Of a DNA stretch of 64,000 bases, positions 37,784-45,831 are shown in pieces. Location: assembly GCF_001282685.1 (NCBI RefSeq), contig NZ_LN875035.1:2918411-2982410 (forward strand), read 5' to 3'. A model generated the notes under the pieces. It did not search any database. It saw only the letters and a program-made list of their open reading frames with translations, and was not told where the DNA came from. This stretch comes from Niameybacter massiliensis. GTDB lineage: Bacteria; Bacillota; Clostridia; Lachnospirales; Cellulosilyticaceae. How positions within the stretch are numbered: the first letter of the stretch is position 1; every line of letters begins with the position of its first letter. The position numbers were made by a program, and so were the translations under genes.

Positions 37784-37897
37784 AGCCTTCCCCCTTAGAC
37801 GTCTATTATCTTCTCAATTTAATTGTAGTTCGCCAAATTATCATTTGTCAAAGTTAAATAGTCTGTTTTATCTAAATTCGTTATTATAGTCAAAACA

Positions 37898-37928
37898 AAG
37901 GTCTAGATAAGCATTTTACCTAGACCTT
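37898..37928 (-). terminator. Terminator of the Bcs-like operon
   Basis: AAGGTCTAG/CTAGACCTT stem with a 13-base loop, followed on the minus strand by TTTGTTTTG. Confidence 0.75.
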
Positions 37929-37944
37929 CCTTGTACAAAACTAC

Positions 37945-39894
37945 CTATTTATTTTTTCTATAGACAAAGTAAACAATGATTAATCCGCCCATCAGCACAA
38001 ATATACTAATCACCAAAATACCTTCTTGTATTCGCCCTTCTGTAGGCTTATTAGCAGAAGGATTATTTACAGTTTCTTCTTTAGAAGTTGAAATGATTTG
38101 GGGTACTTCTATTACCTCTGCAAGAGAGGTTTGTCCCTCACTATCAATGATTAACTTTTGCCCCATTAAAGAGGTTGGGTTCACTTTAGTATTTAGCAAA
38201 CGATTCAGTTCCTCATGAGATGCCACACTAATCTTTAACTCTCCTTGCTCTTTACCTTCTTTAGGTTTTATCGTACATACTATACTTTCTGTATTAAAAG
38301 TTGTCACAGCACTCTGAGGCACCACTTCATAAATAATACTTTGATATTGATTATACTCTGGGTCTACTGCTTCTCTTGTAATATAAATGCTTCCTGCTCG
38401 TTGTGACATATTTGCCCCAATCTTTGTAAATAACCTTGAAAGCACTTTAAGATCTGCTTGATTTAAATCTTTTGGTAACACAAGTTGTATAGGCTGTAAT
38501 ACGCCCTCTTTTACAAAGGGGTAAGGAAACATTTCAAAGGCATAGGTTTTTACTACACCTGCTGGCAAATAGAAATAGGAATCTTTTAAAATAAGTCCCC
38601 ATGGTGTATCTTCTTCCCTTGTTATACATTCAGCTTTATTAATTTCTAAATCAAAAGCTATGGTTACTTTTGTATTATTTTTTATTCGTATATCTTGTGG
38701 GATAGTGAGCTCTATTGTATCATCATCTGCTCTACTTCTATCTAATAAACTACTAGAAACAGCTTGATCATTAATATAAAGGGTTACTAAAGCATGTTCA
38801 AAATCTAAGTTTTTACTATATCTTGTGTGTAAAACCAACTTAGCACCTTTTTGTAATATCAATTCATTAGGTACTTTTAAAAAGATATTTGCTTTATTTC
38901 TATGCTGACCTGTTATATAGATAGAATCCAGTCCCATTTTCTCTAGTGTATAGTGACTTTTACCTTTTTCTATCTGGGCTTCTTCAAAAGCATTCTCTTC
39001 GTTTATAACAAGATAATTAGACTGTACAAGACTTCTTACCTCTTCTGCTCCCAAGAAATCTATACCACGCTCTAGTGCCTCCTTCGTATTCCCACATAAG
39101 ATAAGCCTATCATAATCTGATGTCCTATCAAGTAATATACCAACAGATTGTTCTCTTGGTAATGTTAACTCAGGATAGTAGATACTAAGCATTTTTTCAT
39201 TGCCTATAATGATGCTTTTCTTATATTCATCTAAATTATCCGTTGGCTTGATAAAGAATTCATCGCCTTGGCTGGTATACTCACCTAAAGTTGTGATAAT
39301 TTCTAATGCTGCTGCTAGCTCCTCATCTGTATAATCCTTAGCAATAATAATAGGAATGGTATCTTCTAATTGCTTTCGCATAATAGGATAGGGGAATTGG
39401 CCTATTGTTAGCTCATTGGCTTCTGTATACGTAAGTGTAAGCTGTGATTCTTTAAATAAATTGAGCCAGTTTGCAGGATTCACAGAATCTGTACATCTTT
39501 CTTCAGATAACCTTAGATAGCCTTTTATACTTAATTTATTAAACCCTTCTTTTATATTTGCTAGAGGTATCCCTACCTCTAATTGATCTGCTTCAAACTT
39601 TTGGCTAGGATTAAATGAATAAAAAGGTTCATCGTTTAAATAAAGTGTTATTGTAGACATATCTGTTCGTATTAATTGAGTTGTTAAATAGACTAAGTTT
39701 AACTTAGCTCCTGTAACTTCCCATGGTTCCTCTACATAAAAGTACCAATCCTCTTTTCCAAAGTTACCATTCACTTGTCTATTGGTCCCTAGTGTATAAC
39801 TTACCTCACCTGTTCTAACAGCTCCAAACACTGGTTGTATAAAGCATATAACCAGAAGGATTATTAGACCGGTCCATTGTTTTAGCATTTTCAT
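37945..39894 (-). CDS. BcsB-like polysaccharide synthase accessory protein
   Basis: The 649-residue protein has a signal peptide (about 1-24), a long extracytoplasmic beta-rich region and a single C-terminal membrane segment (about 622-644) followed by YRKNK. Repeated carbohydrate-binding-like modules alternate with BcsB-type sequences such as LVYLTTQLIRTDMSTITLYL and LNDEPFYSF. In cellulose synthase BcsB guides the emerging glucan and its C-terminal anchor helix stabilises BcsA. It is last in the operon, ten bases after the GT2 gene. Confidence 0.82.
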   Translation of the reverse strand: MKMLKQWTGLIILLVICFIQPVFGAVRTGEVSYTLGTNRQVNGNFGKEDWYFYVEEPWEVTGAKLNLVYLTTQLIRTDMSTITLYLNDEPFYSFNPSQKFEADQLEVGIPLANIKEGFNKLSIKGYLRLSEERCTDSVNPANWLNLFKESQLTLTYTEANELTIGQFPYPIMRKQLEDTIPIIIAKDYTDEELAAALEIITTLGEYTSQGDEFFIKPTDNLDEYKKSIIIGNEKMLSIYYPELTLPREQSVGILLDRTSDYDRLILCGNTKEALERGIDFLGAEEVRSLVQSNYLVINEENAFEEAQIEKGKSHYTLEKMGLDSIYITGQHRNKANIFLKVPNELILQKGAKLVLHTRYSKNLDFEHALVTLYINDQAVSSSLLDRSRADDDTIELTIPQDIRIKNNTKVTIAFDLEINKAECITREEDTPWGLILKDSYFYLPAGVVKTYAFEMFPYPFVKEGVLQPIQLVLPKDLNQADLKVLSRLFTKIGANMSQRAGSIYITREAVDPEYNQYQSIIYEVVPQSAVTTFNTESIVCTIKPKEGKEQGELKISVASHEELNRLLNTKVNPTSLMGQKLIIDSEGQTSLAEVIEVPQIISTSKEETVNNPSANKPTEGRIQEGILVISIFVLMGGLIIVYFVYRKNK

Positions 39895-39903
39895 TATGTC
39901 CTC

Positions 39904-41154
39904 CTAAAATCGCTCGGTCTTGTACCATTTAACTTCTGTCTTTAATATACTATCCTTAATATAATGATAAAGTCCCATCAGTGTTACAACTGCCCAAAGC
40001 TTGGAATAGGTAAAATACATGAGCATGGCTATTAAAATATTCTCGGCATATAATTCACCCTTTTCTAGCATGAGTGCCATAGATATAGAAAGTATATACA
40101 CCACATAAGCTAGAAACCATAAAATCAGACTATATCCTACTACATTGATTGTAATAAGATGTGTTAATCCAAAAATAAATAGTACATCTGAAACAACACT
40201 TGCTGTTAAACCAAAAATATAAATTGCTGTAAAATAGATAATATCGAATTTAACAGGTCCACTTTTTGGATCAAATACATATTTCAAATCTTTGAAAATC
40301 ACATAGATATTTCCCTTGGCCCATCTTGTCCTTTGCTTCAACCAAACTTTGATGGTTTGTGGCTCTTGCTCCCATGTAACAGCCTTTGGCATAAACATAA
40401 TTCTATAACCCATTCTATACATTCTAAAGCTAATCTCTGTATCCTCTGCTAAAGCCTTTGTATCCCATCCACCTATTTCATCAATAATACGCCTTCTTAG
40501 GATAAAATTAGTACCTGGAATTGTACATAATTTGAGAAGTTTCCATCTCCCTGCTTGAGCCATCCATTGAAAGAATAACGTTTCTATATTCACAAACTTA
40601 GTCAATAAGTTATGTTCCTTATTTCGTGTTCTAAACTTCCCAATTACTGCTCCTAATTTGTCATCTCTTACAAGAGTCGTTACCAAATAAAGTAGAGCCT
40701 TTTTCTCTGGTGTATTATCTGCATCATAAATAGCAATAAACTCACCCACACTTTCCTTATATCCAATATTAAGTGCATTAGACTTACCTTTTCCTCCTGT
40801 AACTGCATCTGTATTGATTACCTTTAGACATACAGGATGCCCTTCATCTTGGATACGCTTTAAAGTCTTAGCTGAATCATCACTAGAGTTATCATTAATA
40901 ACGATGACTTCATACCTATCTACGGGATAGTCAAAGCTTAATAGAGACCGAACTGTCTTTTCAATAACTATCCCTTCATTATGAGCTGGTACCATAATAG
41001 ACACCATAGGATAGTATTCTAACTGTGTATCAATCCAAGTGTTATCCATTTCTTTGCTATACAAATAGCCACCTATTCCTAATACTATATTTACAAGAAT
41101 AACAACCCATATAATAATTAACGAAGCAATAAATAAATACTCGATTAGACTCAT
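39904..41154 (-). CDS. Processive family-2 glycosyltransferase (BcsA-like)
   Basis: The 416-residue synthase has one N-terminal membrane segment (about 8-30), the GT2 core with Asp88 in VINDNSSDDS, DAD at 144-146, the TED-type acid AEDTE around Asp238, and the processive signature QRTRW (274-278). Three or four membrane segments follow (about 300-400). This is the cellulose/hyaluronan synthase type. It ends without a PilZ domain, so c-di-GMP control as in BcsA is not expected. It overlaps the preceding gene by four bases (ATGA). Confidence 0.9.
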   Translation of the reverse strand: MSLIEYLFIASLIIIWVVILVNIVLGIGGYLYSKEMDNTWIDTQLEYYPMVSIMVPAHNEGIVIEKTVRSLLSFDYPVDRYEVIVINDNSSDDSAKTLKRIQDEGHPVCLKVINTDAVTGGKGKSNALNIGYKESVGEFIAIYDADNTPEKKALLYLVTTLVRDDKLGAVIGKFRTRNKEHNLLTKFVNIETLFFQWMAQAGRWKLLKLCTIPGTNFILRRRIIDEIGGWDTKALAEDTEISFRMYRMGYRIMFMPKAVTWEQEPQTIKVWLKQRTRWAKGNIYVIFKDLKYVFDPKSGPVKFDIIYFTAIYIFGLTASVVSDVLFIFGLTHLITINVVGYSLILWFLAYVVYILSISMALMLEKGELYAENILIAMLMYFTYSKLWAVVTLMGLYHYIKDSILKTEVKWYKTERF

Positions 41155-41795
41155 ATATTTCCTTTCTTATAAAATTTTCTTTTTTCTCTTTTCCTGCCTT
41201 CTCTAATGAAATAGATAAAGGCGATAATAGCTAGAATCATGACCCATCTTATCATACGATTAAATCTGCTTATATCTATTACCTCTTGCTCTATATTTTG
41301 TCCTGTATTTTCTTCTATGATCTCTTGTTCTATATATTTAGGCATTCTAAGTAGTCTTACATACTGCTTCGGTAAAGGACTTATTGGGATTTCTAGATCC
41401 CCCATATTTTGTATAACTGTTTTTATATTTTCGGTAGCTGCATCAACTCGAATAGCTATTGGTTGTTGACTCGTTGTAAAAGCTTCATAGCCATGTAAAT
41501 CTAATTCACTACTCTCTATCATTGTAAATAGACTGATCTCTTTTAGAATGGTATTTCGCTCCATATAAGGCTCTGCCTTCTCACCTGGTAACAGAATGCC
41601 TACCTCTTCTTTATCTAATTCAAGAGTATAGGGAATATGTGCTGCTTTTAAATATTCAGTAGCCACTTCTAACCTATCTCCTGCTCCTCTATCATTACAG
41701 GTTAAAATCAAAAATCGAGGTCCTATATCTTGTCCTACTAGATTGAGTATGGTGCATAACCATACACCTATAACAACTACGATTCTATACATCAT
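41151..41795 (-). CDS. Uncharacterised bitopic membrane protein of the Bcs-like operon
   Basis: I do not recognise this 214-residue protein. It has an N-terminal signal or membrane segment (about 4-21), an extracytoplasmic region of about 160 residues, and a C-terminal membrane segment (about 183-198) followed by a strongly basic tail EGRKREKRKF. The topology resembles a small BcsB-like or assembly subunit. It overlaps both neighbours (11 and 4 bases), so it is made with the synthase. Confidence 0.75.
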   Translation of the reverse strand: MMYRIVVVIGVWLCTILNLVGQDIGPRFLILTCNDRGAGDRLEVATEYLKAAHIPYTLELDKEEVGILLPGEKAEPYMERNTILKEISLFTMIESSELDLHGYEAFTTSQQPIAIRVDAATENIKTVIQNMGDLEIPISPLPKQYVRLLRMPKYIEQEIIEENTGQNIEQEVIDISRFNRMIRWVMILAIIAFIYFIREGRKREKRKFYKKGNI

Positions 41796-42630
41796 ATTCT
41801 AATTCTCTATTCACTTGCTCTATATATTCAAGAGGTGAAGCTATACCTTCATGATACTGTTTAAAAGCAATTCTTAGCTCAATCTCAATACCTTTAAGAG
41901 GTGATGTTTCATCAAATTCCAATTCTGTTATCTGTTGTTTAATACGCTCTCTAATCACTTCTTGATAGGTCTCATCCATGACTAAAATAGAAGCAAAACT
42001 TTCTTCTTCTCTTAGACTATACGTTGCATCTTCTTCACGTAGCGTACTAATAATAGCCTTGCCAATCTGCTTTTGTAATTCATCATATGCTTTTTGTCCA
42101 ATAATGCCTTTAATGCGCTTCCCATAACGTAATTTAACGATCATGACGGTTAGAGGTAGCTCTTGTCTACTACATAACTTCATATACATTTTTAAATGTT
42201 CTAGAAAGGCACTTGTATTCTTTAATCCTGTTAACTCATCTATTCTTACTAACATTTGTTTTTGTAAATTCAATTGTTTATTAAATTTTTGTAGATTGTT
42301 GATGGCTTGTCCTAAAGCACCTATGCTCAGATAAAAGGCGGGTAAAATAATAAAACCACTTGCTTCAAAAAATGTAACTACTCCTTGACTTTGATGAATC
42401 ATAGCAAGCAATATGGTACCGTAAATAAAATCTCCTATCATGCTTAAACAAAGGGCCACACCAAATCCTGTATAATACGAAATAATTGATCCTATACACA
42501 GTGCGCCCATAAAATAATAAACGATAAAGTCCGCTCGCTGTATACCTGTTGTTAACAATAAAATAAATGTAAAAATAATCATCAAACTTATTCCTGCATA
42601 AATGTCTGCTTTTATTCTAGTTATTTTCAT
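41785..42630 (-). CDS. Membrane protein with degenerate GGDEF domain
   Basis: The 281-residue protein has about four membrane segments (1-110) and a GGDEF-like domain starting at DELTGLKN (131-138). Where active diguanylate cyclases have GGDEF this protein has EEESF (208-212), so the metal- and GTP-binding residues are lost. It is probably a non-catalytic sensor or scaffold. It lies 19 bases downstream of the GH8-like gene and overlaps the next gene by 11 bases. Confidence 0.8.
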   Translation of the reverse strand: MKITRIKADIYAGISLMIIFTFILLLTTGIQRADFIVYYFMGALCIGSIISYYTGFGVALCLSMIGDFIYGTILLAMIHQSQGVVTFFEASGFIILPAFYLSIGALGQAINNLQKFNKQLNLQKQMLVRIDELTGLKNTSAFLEHLKMYMKLCSRQELPLTVMIVKLRYGKRIKGIIGQKAYDELQKQIGKAIISTLREEDATYSLREEESFASILVMDETYQEVIRERIKQQITELEFDETSPLKGIEIELRIAFKQYHEGIASPLEYIEQVNRELEYDV

Positions 42631-42649
42631 AGTATCACTTCCTTTATTT

Positions 42650-43753
42650 CTAGAAAGCTAAAAGTGCTTGTAAATTGTCATAAGAATATATTTCTTCACT
42701 TGCCTCGTCTCCAAACGCTCCTTTTAACACACTATTCTCCGTTTGAATTTGAAAGCTTAACATTTTATCCATTGCGAGATCATAAAGTTCTTGATTACCT
42801 ATCACCTTACCTATTTGAGCTATGCCGGCATAAATGGCTGTAGACTCTATATCCGTCGTTGGCATACCTGTTAAAGTATTATATGTTCCATAAACTGCTC
42901 CATTTTTTAGCTCCTCTAATAACCATTTAATCGTCTCATCTTTATGTTGTCCCACCTGTGCTAATTGCAAAATAGTTAAAACCCCTTCTGTCATACGCCA
43001 CTCCTTGCCATGGTCATACGATTTGGTTTCATAATCATATTGAAAAGCGTAAAAGGGAAATACCTTGCCTAGAAATCCTTTTTCTATTGTTTTCAAACTC
43101 TTCCTATATACCTTTTTCCATGCTGGATTAATATCACTTAACTTCCACATGGTTTCAAGATCAAAATAGCAAAGAGGTATGGTGTCTACAACCTCTTCTA
43201 CAAGCCCATCATAACATCCATACAACCGCCCTTTAACTACATTAGTGTTATAAAACTTTTCTTCTATTTGTTGTACCAATGTACTGTACTCAGGATTATT
43301 CCATTTAATACTTGCTTCATAAAGTGCCCTTAAAATTCTTAAGTCATCAATCGCTGCATTGCTACTTGCAAGCGTCTCATCTTCTTTGCTACGCCATACC
43401 AATATCCCATTTGCATTTATCAAATATTGATTAACAAATGTTACTGCTTGTTCAAATTCTTCTGACTTATCTTCTTTTACTAAATACAACATATAGAGTC
43501 CTTGTGATTCTGAAAGTACTTCATGTCCTGTAGCCCACTCATTGGCCATTGTAGTAGGATGGTAATTTGTATAAATTCCTCCTAATTCATTCATGAGATA
43601 TTGCTTTATAAAGTTATAACAAGCTTCTTGCTCTTGACTATTACTCATAACTTCAATTACTTTATTATTAACTACGGGGCCTTGGTACTTAATAATAGCA
43701 ATGCTTACTATAATCAATACACCTATTAAAATTACAACATTTTTTTTATACAT
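42650..43753 (-). CDS. Membrane-anchored GH8-like glycoside hydrolase
   Basis: The 367-residue protein has an N-terminal membrane anchor (about 4-22) and an alpha/alpha-barrel-like domain. HEVLSESQGLYML contains the probable general acid Glu82; residues 137-151 (D-x2-I-x2-A-L-x2-A-x3-W) follow the GH8 signature, but the first Asp of the usual D-A-D is Ile135. It fills the place of BcsZ, the cellulase of cellulose synthase operons. The ATG at 43753 is weakly supported by GGAA; a TTG at 43765 is possible. It is first in the operon. Confidence 0.72.
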   Translation of the reverse strand: MYKKNVVILIGVLIIVSIAIIKYQGPVVNNKVIEVMSNSQEQEACYNFIKQYLMNELGGIYTNYHPTTMANEWATGHEVLSESQGLYMLYLVKEDKSEEFEQAVTFVNQYLINANGILVWRSKEDETLASSNAAIDDLRILRALYEASIKWNNPEYSTLVQQIEEKFYNTNVVKGRLYGCYDGLVEEVVDTIPLCYFDLETMWKLSDINPAWKKVYRKSLKTIEKGFLGKVFPFYAFQYDYETKSYDHGKEWRMTEGVLTILQLAQVGQHKDETIKWLLEELKNGAVYGTYNTLTGMPTTDIESTAIYAGIAQIGKVIGNQELYDLAMDKMLSFQIQTENSVLKGAFGDEASEEIYSYDNLQALLAF

Positions 43754-44086
43754 ATAATATTCCAATCTATAATTTTCGCTTATGGTCTTATGATTTTCTC
43801 ATCTTTATTATTATATAATTTGAGAGACTTTATTTATATCTATCTACTTTTAACCTATCTAAATCTATTCAACAGAAGATATAACATAAAACATATTAAA
43901 TAGTAATAGGTATTATAACCAGTCTATAACTATATTAAAATATTTATTTTAATATAAAAATAAGTTACGTTTTAAATCCATAATACAAATTCTAAAGAAA
44001 CCTTAAGAATTTAGATATTTCATTTTAAGAAGTTTCCTGTACACTATATTTATAAAATAAAAATAATCTATGGGAGATTTAAACTA
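43754..44086. other. Divergent intergenic region
   Basis: This 333-base AT-rich gap separates the Bcs-like operon from the TM2-like gene and must carry both promoters. A minus-strand TATAAT lies in the first 80 bases, without a clear -35. At 43931-43956 there is a perfect 11-bp AT-only inverted repeat (TATATTAAAAT, four bases, ATTTTAATATA). No reading frame is convincing. Confidence 0.5.
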
Positions 44087-44730: not shown

Positions 44731-45831
44731 ATGTCTAACCGTTCAAAAAAATGGATTCTTCTATTAGGAGCATGTGTTTTATGTAGTGCACCACTTTATG
44801 CTACTATTACAGAATCTACAAATACTCGTGGAGAAAAACCTTCAGTAACACAACCTCAAGCTAAACCAGAAACAAAACCTACACCAGCCCCTACTCCTGG
44901 TCAAAGTACTAAACCTGCTCCAGCTCCTACTCCTGGCGAAAGTACTAAACCTGCTCCAGCCCCTACTCCTGGTGAAAGTACTAAACCTGCCCCAGCTCCT
45001 ACTCCTGGCGAAAGTACTAAACCTGCTCCAGCCCCTACTCCTGGCGAAAGTACTAAACCTGCCCCAGCTCCTACTCCTGGTCAAAGTACTAAACCAATGC
45101 CTGCTCCTACTCCTGGCGAAAGTACTAAACCTGCTCCAGCCCCTACTCCTGGACAATGTACTAAACCTACTCCAGCTCCTACTCCTGGACAATGTACTAA
45201 ACCTACTCCAGCTCCTACTCCTGGTCAAAATACTAAGCCAATGCCTGCCCCTACTCCTAACTGTAAACAAACAGGCTACTATAAAGCATTTGAAAAGGCT
45301 ATGGCTGGTTACGAAGAAACCACTTCAAAACTTCAACCATCTGGATTCGTTGATATTGACTTCTTAGAAGAAATGATTCCTCATCATGAATTAGGTATTT
45401 CAATGGCTGAAAACATCTTAAAAACTGCAAAAAATGATGAAGTTAAAGCCATTGCAACTTCTATTGTAGAAAGCCAAAAAGCTCAAGTAGGACAAATGAC
45501 TAAACTTGAAGAAAAATTAAAAACAAAAAATTGTAAATGCGACAAAAATAATTCTTGCGCAAATGAAGAAGAAGCTAAATATTTAGCTAAATATAAAGAA
45601 ATCAATGAATCTATGATTAAAAAGATGAAAGCTCTTGTTGCTACTTGTAACGATGATGCAGATTTCATTGCTGAAATGATTCCTCATCATGAAGGTGCAG
45701 TTGAAATGGCTCAAAACATTCTCGAATATAGCCATAATCGTGCAGTTAAAAAAATAGCTAAAAACATAGTTAAAGAGCAACAAGCACAAATTAAACAAAT
45801 GCAAACTTTACTTGCTACTCTTCAAAAATAA
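44731..45831 (+). CDS. Secreted proline-repeat protein with two DUF305 halves
   Basis: The 366-residue protein has a signal peptide (about 1-25), eleven tandem 12-residue repeats of the type TKPAPAPTPGES (residues 48-179), and two DUF305 units (about 200-265 and 300-365). Each unit contains the metal-binding-like motif EMIPHHE (VDIDFLEEMIPHHELG and DADFIAEMIPHHEG). DUF305 is a ferritin-like helical domain, linked in several bacteria to copper or other metals. The proline repeat is probably a wall-spanning stalk. AAAGGAGA precedes the ATG. Confidence 0.87.
   Translation: MSNRSKKWILLLGACVLCSAPLYATITESTNTRGEKPSVTQPQAKPETKPTPAPTPGQSTKPAPAPTPGESTKPAPAPTPGESTKPAPAPTPGESTKPAPAPTPGESTKPAPAPTPGQSTKPMPAPTPGESTKPAPAPTPGQCTKPTPAPTPGQCTKPTPAPTPGQNTKPMPAPTPNCKQTGYYKAFEKAMAGYEETTSKLQPSGFVDIDFLEEMIPHHELGISMAENILKTAKNDEVKAIATSIVESQKAQVGQMTKLEEKLKTKNCKCDKNNSCANEEEAKYLAKYKEINESMIKKMKALVATCNDDADFIAEMIPHHEGAVEMAQNILEYSHNRAVKKIAKNIVKEQQAQIKQMQTLLATLQK
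44872..45267 (+). repeat. Eleven 36-bp in-frame tandem repeats
   Basis: Eleven near-identical 36-base units encode the 12-residue proline repeat. Units differ mainly at the Ala/Thr/Met position and at Glu-Ser, Gln-Ser, Gln-Cys or Gln-Asn. Third-base differences are few, suggesting recent copying by slippage or unequal exchange. Confidence 0.95.

Follow-up and report, generated by a model that had tools for sequence, protein, structure and literature searches.

How can an exopolysaccharide operon be controlled when its synthase carries no PilZ domain and the GGDEF domain encoded next to it has lost its catalytic motif? An earlier interpretation of this locus, made from the letters alone (hereafter the sequence-only reading), considered that control by c-di-GMP had been replaced or lost. 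Overall, its description of a PilZ-less BcsB operon with a non-catalytic GGDEF domain stands, whereas the loss of c-di-GMP control is most likely wrong here and the assignment to a cellulose-specific core goes too far.

A tight minus-strand operon

The window, i.e., the whole stretch of 64,000 nucleotides that was analysed, carries, between positions 37945 and 43765, five ORFs that are all read from the minus strand. In the order of transcription, these encode a hydrolase, a membrane GGDEF protein, a 214-residue protein, a GT2 and a BcsB-like protein:

42650 to 43765, minus strand: extracellular glycoside hydrolase of GH126 type, PssZ/CPF_2247-like, 371 aa, with a hydrophobic anchor at the N-terminus, in the YdaJ position (match to 3ren and 6r2m)
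41785 to 42630, minus strand: predicted c-di-GMP receptor, YdaK/PssE-like, 281 aa, four-helix membrane domain followed by a catalytically dead GGDEF domain (PF00990, E 1e-12, 48 bits)
41151 to 41795, minus strand: 214-aa protein with N- and C-terminal hydrophobic helices, YdaL position, weakly similar to its relatives
39904 to 41154, minus strand: processive GT2 synthase without PilZ, YdaM/PssC-like, 416 aa (PF13641, E 1e-29, 104 bits)
37945 to 39894, minus strand: BcsB-like extracellular subunit with a C-terminal hydrophobic helix, YdaN/PssD-like, 649 aa (PF03170, E 4e-40, 138 bits)
37897 to 37929, minus strand: terminator-like hairpin directly 3' of the last gene (14-pair stem, 4 G-C pairs)

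Successive ORFs are separated by a gap of 19 nt, overlaps of 11 and 4 nt, and a gap of 9 nt, an operon-like arrangement. These are genuine genes, packed into a tight operon that ends at the terminator-like hairpin, for which the argument is position and not rarity, as two comparable hairpin sites were seen against 2.5 expected in shuffles. The five-ORF block had been correctly delimited except for its end at 43753, which is an internal ATG, the ORF starting at the TTG at 43765. The downstream neighbours, MoxR, DUF58 and transglutaminase-like genes, are an ordinary set separate from the operon. A search for RNA control (riboswitch or other) around the operon returned as its sole match a sub-threshold CRISPR-repeat, located away from it. 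On the plus strand, positions 44731-45831 encode a DUF305 protein with a long series of near-identical TKPAPAPTPGES-type repeats.

The synthase, its BcsB partner and the polymer

The profile match confirms the BcsB-like protein, which is the sole BcsB match in its genome, and the absence of PilZ from the GT2 was equally borne out, no Pfam match to this domain being found in the 416-aa protein at E up to 1. The catalytic core of the synthase appears complete: D144-x-D146, E237-D238 and Q274-R-x-R-W278 are invariant in all eight aligned sequences, the window's included. The operon thus shares with Bcs systems a BcsB subunit, a processive GT2 and c-di-GMP as the probable activator, but differs from them in that the catalytic subunit lacks a C-terminal PilZ domain, that a separate I-site receptor is encoded, and that the hydrolase belongs to GH126 and not to GH8. 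Synthases of the GT2 class extrude the chain through the GT2 itself; with BcsB outside, a second membrane is therefore unnecessary for export.

The description of these proteins as a cellulose synthase core was too specific. Of the NCBIfam models, PgaC/IcaA (PNAG) gives the GT2 172.6 bits and CelA 106.3 bits, both below their cut-offs, while phmmer finds catalytic subunits of cellulose synthase as its closest solved chains (E 5e-20). A similar ambiguity is described for the Listeria enzyme PssC, which is about equally near to PNAG and cellulose synthases, product prediction being judged unreliable in that account (Chen et al., PMC4125290); the Listeria polymer of the Pss kind is reported as ManNAc/Gal (PMC5422440). 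For the Yda polymer of B. subtilis, lectin evidence for alpha-Gal or GalNAc was described in 2026 (PMC13274460). The likelier product here would be an amino-sugar polymer and not cellulose, but no other step of the analysis is as uncertain; product identity relies on profile scores below cut-off. Synthesis of true cellulose (Bcs) or of a mixed-linkage glucan seems improbable to us: BcsB homology and the solved relatives of the GT2 speak for it, but the GT2 profile scores, the absence of PilZ, the GH126 hydrolase and the Listeria precedent all speak against it, and a separate PilZ-bearing GT2 of the same genome would suit cellulose better.

This separate GT2 (locus L002, 1420-3273 minus; G000:C11:3168438-3168710) ends in a PilZ domain and weakly matches the Cellulose_synt family, so that the genome may make a second, PilZ-controlled polymer.

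A degenerate GGDEF domain with an intact I-site

In agreement with the sequence-only reading, the 281-residue protein has a GGDEF fold without the GG[DE]EF motif. EEESF stands at residues 208-212 and, owing to one extra residue inserted in the hairpin that follows the I-site, REEES (207-211) is an equally valid reading of the motif, so that (R)EEESF replaces the GG(D/E)EF of active diguanylate cyclases. Overlooked, however, was an intact RxxD directly upstream of the dead motif, accompanied by a second arginine of the ligand site:

42028 to 42039, minus strand: primary I-site RxxD (REED, residues 198-201; position counted from the ORF start at 42630)
42166 to 42168, minus strand: R155, aligned to 3bre with a WspR arginine that we take to be its secondary I-site residue

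All three I-site residues, R155, R198 and D201, are kept, and REED is followed by five residues and then by REEES, the same spacing as in PssE and YdaK. The published account of PssE places RxxD five residues before DKDDA, with a Kd for c-di-GMP of 0.79 µM and a requirement of the protein for polymer formation (PMC4125290); that of YdaK places it five residues before SDERI and reports that R202A or D205A abolish polymer production (PMC5422440). The predicted model (pLDDT 91.9) comprises helices 2-29, 35-54, 56-81 and 87-127 followed by the GGDEF fold, and superposes on solved GGDEF domains with Z of about 20, mostly at 1.6-2.4 A over some 150 residues. Such a combination, a dead active site and a ligand site that is conserved, marks a receptor. 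Most likely, the "dead" GGDEF protein keeps its c-di-GMP pocket and acts as an on-switch; control by c-di-GMP would then most likely have moved onto another protein, not been lost. By the same token, wherever a PilZ-less synthase has a dead GGDEF domain next to it, that domain should be treated as a potential receptor until the I-site is inspected.

Homologues of the receptor were collected from 108 loci, including those of the best 80 GT2 relatives, a selection that under-samples distant or differently controlled relatives. They correspond to 98 proteins, 95 of them distinct (the window's among them) once identical copies and one run-together frame are excluded. Among the matches listed, RxxD is found at the aligned site in 87 of the 95, arginine at the R155 position in 91, and a GG(D/E)EF-like motif in none. 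In a 54-row alignment prepared for modelling (A3), where identity between the window's receptor and the other rows amounts to only 17-30%, the invariant columns are T134, R155, R198 and D201, i.e., the I-site residues make up three of the four; as the rows of A3 were hand-chosen among RxxD-keeping proteins only, the counts over the 95 homologues are the fairer measure.

The window's genome has 19 GGDEF matches including the operon's own, 11 EAL and two PilZ matches; with 18 other GGDEF matches and the EAL proteins, a c-di-GMP signal is very probably available for sensing. This abundance, like the intact I-site, makes it quite unlikely that c-di-GMP control was truly lost, with the GGDEF domain acting as a scaffold and the synthase being constitutive or under transcriptional or other-signal control. 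The missing GGDEF motif and PilZ domain would fit such a loss, and a ligand-site-free version does occur naturally, as receptors without RxxD are found in Enterococcus and Ligilactobacillus genomes devoid of GGDEF proteins (see below). The possibility that the domain still works as a diguanylate cyclase, with an unusual motif, can be set aside almost entirely: the GGDEF fold is intact, but charged residues replace both glycines, the WspR DxD that precedes the motif aligns with K166 and R168, and no listed homologue has the motif.

The interpretation we favour, with a probability of roughly 0.85, is that of a synthase-dependent exopolysaccharide operon of the Pss/Yda type, controlled by c-di-GMP at the post-translational level. 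The gene set and order, the dead GGDEF site, the intact I-site, the intact GT2 core, the BcsB-like partner and the GH126 residues described in the next section can all be read in the DNA itself.

A GH126 hydrolase and a possible course of synthesis

In sequence comparisons with solved structures, the best relatives of the hydrolase are 3ren (E 3e-58) and 6r2m (E 3e-19). According to two papers, 3ren is CPF_2247 and 6r2m is the Listeria PssZ, both of the CAZy family GH126, a relative of GH8, in which Glu84, Asp136, Arg139, Tyr194 and Tyr307 (CPF_2247 numbering) are given as invariant. The alignment to 3ren, whose chain positions correspond to the published numbers minus 21 by hand count, shows identical residues at all five positions. 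These matches and conserved residues place the hydrolase in GH126; the GH8-like character first attributed to it is only marginal (Pfam Glyco_hydro_8, 23.1 bits for a cut-off of 24).

Synthesis might then proceed as follows. Produced by the other GGDEF proteins of the cell, c-di-GMP would bind the I-site of the receptor, which would activate the GT2-BcsB synthase through its membrane helices, perhaps also by way of the 214-aa protein. The polymer would be extruded via the GT2 channel across the single membrane, with BcsB handling the chain outside, and the GH126 enzyme would trim or release it; a precedent is PssZ, described as cutting the polymer of its partner operon.

A probably reduced third subunit

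As the sequence-only reading had it, the 214-residue protein is unfamiliar, in that Pfam gives no match. Its place between receptor and GT2, its C-terminal hydrophobic helix and its basic tail agree with the YdaL family. It differs from the B. subtilis protein, presumably a longer DUF2334 protein, in its length of 214 aa and in the absence of a DUF2334 (PF10096) match, which 26 of the 31 sequences of alignment A4 do have; a literature search on DUF2334 yielded nothing useful. Proteins at this position in relatives are 227 to 599 residues long (97 distinct among the matches listed, the window's counted). With the 428-aa protein found at the same place in locus L020, the similarity reaches E 2.7e-4 in a small search, and the 214-aa protein aligns weakly to the C-terminal half of this relative (shuffle z 6.4, against 4.2 and 2.8 with two further relatives). 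The predicted model has a pLDDT of only 67, with residues 63-107 and 144-165 under 50, and was for this reason read no further than its end helices. Among the matches listed, a strict HGYTH-type motif (own regular expression) marks a deacetylase-like site in 16 of 99 proteins at the YdaL place, so that most such sites look degenerate. Taken together, the 214-aa protein is probably a reduced YdaL-like subunit without the DUF2334 domain. The window is a Clostridia-side example of the module, and its seemingly reduced third subunit could help to show through which part the receptor is coupled to the synthase.

In the family of the window's genome, locus L015 (4562-9327) is another operon whose third protein is short (227 aa) and in which RxxD is kept, but its GT2 and BcsB have diverged strongly from the window's (40% and 24% identity). 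An extra gene of about 490-510 aa lies upstream of the receptor gene in L017 (12809-14314) and at the same place in L013, L014, L018, L019 and L020, all from Clostridia, and is absent from the window; a Pfam scan of one of these proteins of about 500 aa gave no match.

Receptors without the I-site in Lactobacillales

The eight listed homologues that lack RxxD come exclusively from Lactobacillales, namely Enterococcus (three), Vagococcus (one), Ligilactobacillus (two) and Secundilactobacillus (two). R155 is also missing in three of the eight, and the Pfam GGDEF profile no longer recognises the L094 protein at E 0.001. The GGDEF profile was searched for in these eight genomes and in those of 16 of the 87 RxxD-keeping homologues (13 Lactobacillaceae, Sporolactobacillus and two Listeria), in addition to the window's own. 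A match was present in 16 of 16 RxxD-keeping genomes (E 3e-32 or better) and absent from five of the eight others. The Vagococcus and the two Secundilactobacillus genomes do have GGDEF proteins yet an RxxD-less receptor, showing that loss of the site tracks loss of the signal imperfectly.

The Enterococcus family was covered further by a search of 105 genomes, the query of which was itself an RxxD-less receptor and hence biased towards such proteins. Matches were obtained in 11 genomes, at 12 loci; RxxD is found in none of the ten that cover the I-site, of which three duplicate proteins of the first set, one is an additional copy in a genome of that set and six lie in new genomes. No GGDEF match was found in the eight further receptor-bearing genomes of this family (completeness unstated), in six of which the I-site is covered. 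Joining both searches, GGDEF proteins are absent from 11 of 14 RxxD-less genomes versus none of 16 RxxD-keeping ones. Within Lactobacillales, genomes with and without GGDEF proteins number 13 and 0 when RxxD is kept versus 3 and 11 when it is not. The corresponding Fisher p of 3e-5 is too favourable, since these genomes share ancestry and the association follows descent in clusters. For the eight, three changes of the RxxD state are seen on the GT2 tree, at least two of them being forced by starred branches, versus 7.8 in shuffles.

The RxxD-less YdaK/PssE-like receptors are those of L094, L101, L142, L139, L090, L108, L126 and L129, and of L151-L155, L157 and L158, mostly from Enterococcaceae and Ligilactobacillus genomes without a GGDEF match. 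No publication on enterococcal YdaK/PssE-like proteins was found in the open-licence literature searched.

The absence of GGDEF proteins from most genomes in which RxxD is lost, and their presence in all those searched in which it is kept, fits an I-site maintained for c-di-GMP. Loss of c-di-GMP control, or something like it, seems to have occurred in the enterococcal relatives, which provide a natural control, a receptor without its signal; this decay of the I-site is the newest side result of the analysis. Tentatively, and with less than even confidence, it may be proposed that the switch lies off the synthase, in a separate membrane receptor, that the only YdaL-like part needed for switching is a membrane helix with a basic tail, retained by the 214-aa protein after loss of DUF2334, and that the receptor of GGDEF-less Lactobacillales is a ligand-free structural subunit of the synthase whose I-site is decaying.

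Known systems and distribution

The layout, first taken as unfamiliar, was already published as yda/pss: a PilZ-less GT2, a BcsB-like subunit and a degenerate GGDEF membrane protein are found in one operon, and this one is an ordinary member of the known kind. Features of B. subtilis and L. monocytogenes are taken here from published descriptions, not from sequence comparison. As described, ydaJKLMN of B. subtilis has the same five-gene order, with hydrolase, membrane protein with RxxD and degenerate GGDEF, YdaL, YdaM and YdaN. The Listeria system, pssA-E with pssZ, is likewise described with a GT2, the BcsB-like PssD, the I-site receptor PssE and the GH126 enzyme PssZ, and the window's GT2 is 58% identical to an L. 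marthii protein; in contrast to the window, the Listeria receptor gene comes last (L096, order L-M-N-K) and the hydrolase is encoded elsewhere. More distant is the Pel system of Pseudomonas, whose synthase receptor is presumably PelD and whose other synthase genes differ from those found here. Its likeness to the window is the use of a degenerate GGDEF domain with an I-site as the c-di-GMP receptor of a polymer synthase, named as the nearest mechanism to PssE (PMC4125290). The clostridial CcsZABHI system is also a Gram-positive synthase operon of five genes, but its description lists a PilZ synthase, GH5, MBOAT and DHHW proteins and no BcsB homologue (PMC7710045); none of these Ccs proteins is among the window's five.

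The compact BcsB-containing operon without PilZ recurs in other genomes. Gene order was counted at 104 loci among the matches listed, four duplicates having been dropped: the full set of receptor, L, GT2 and BcsB is present in 90, with 34 loci in the order J-L-M-N-K and 22 in exactly the window's order, J-K-L-M-N. A BcsB single-sequence search found no relatives in viral contigs or genome contigs, and wider relatives were obtained by a GT2 alignment search instead. Within the class, BcsB is present in 6 of 196 genomes, and within the phylum in 24 of 398; the window's BcsB as query matched in 4 of 116 relatives, itself included. This sporadic distribution suggests repeated loss or transfer. The module is spread across Clostridia, Paenibacillus, Listeria and Lactobacillaceae.
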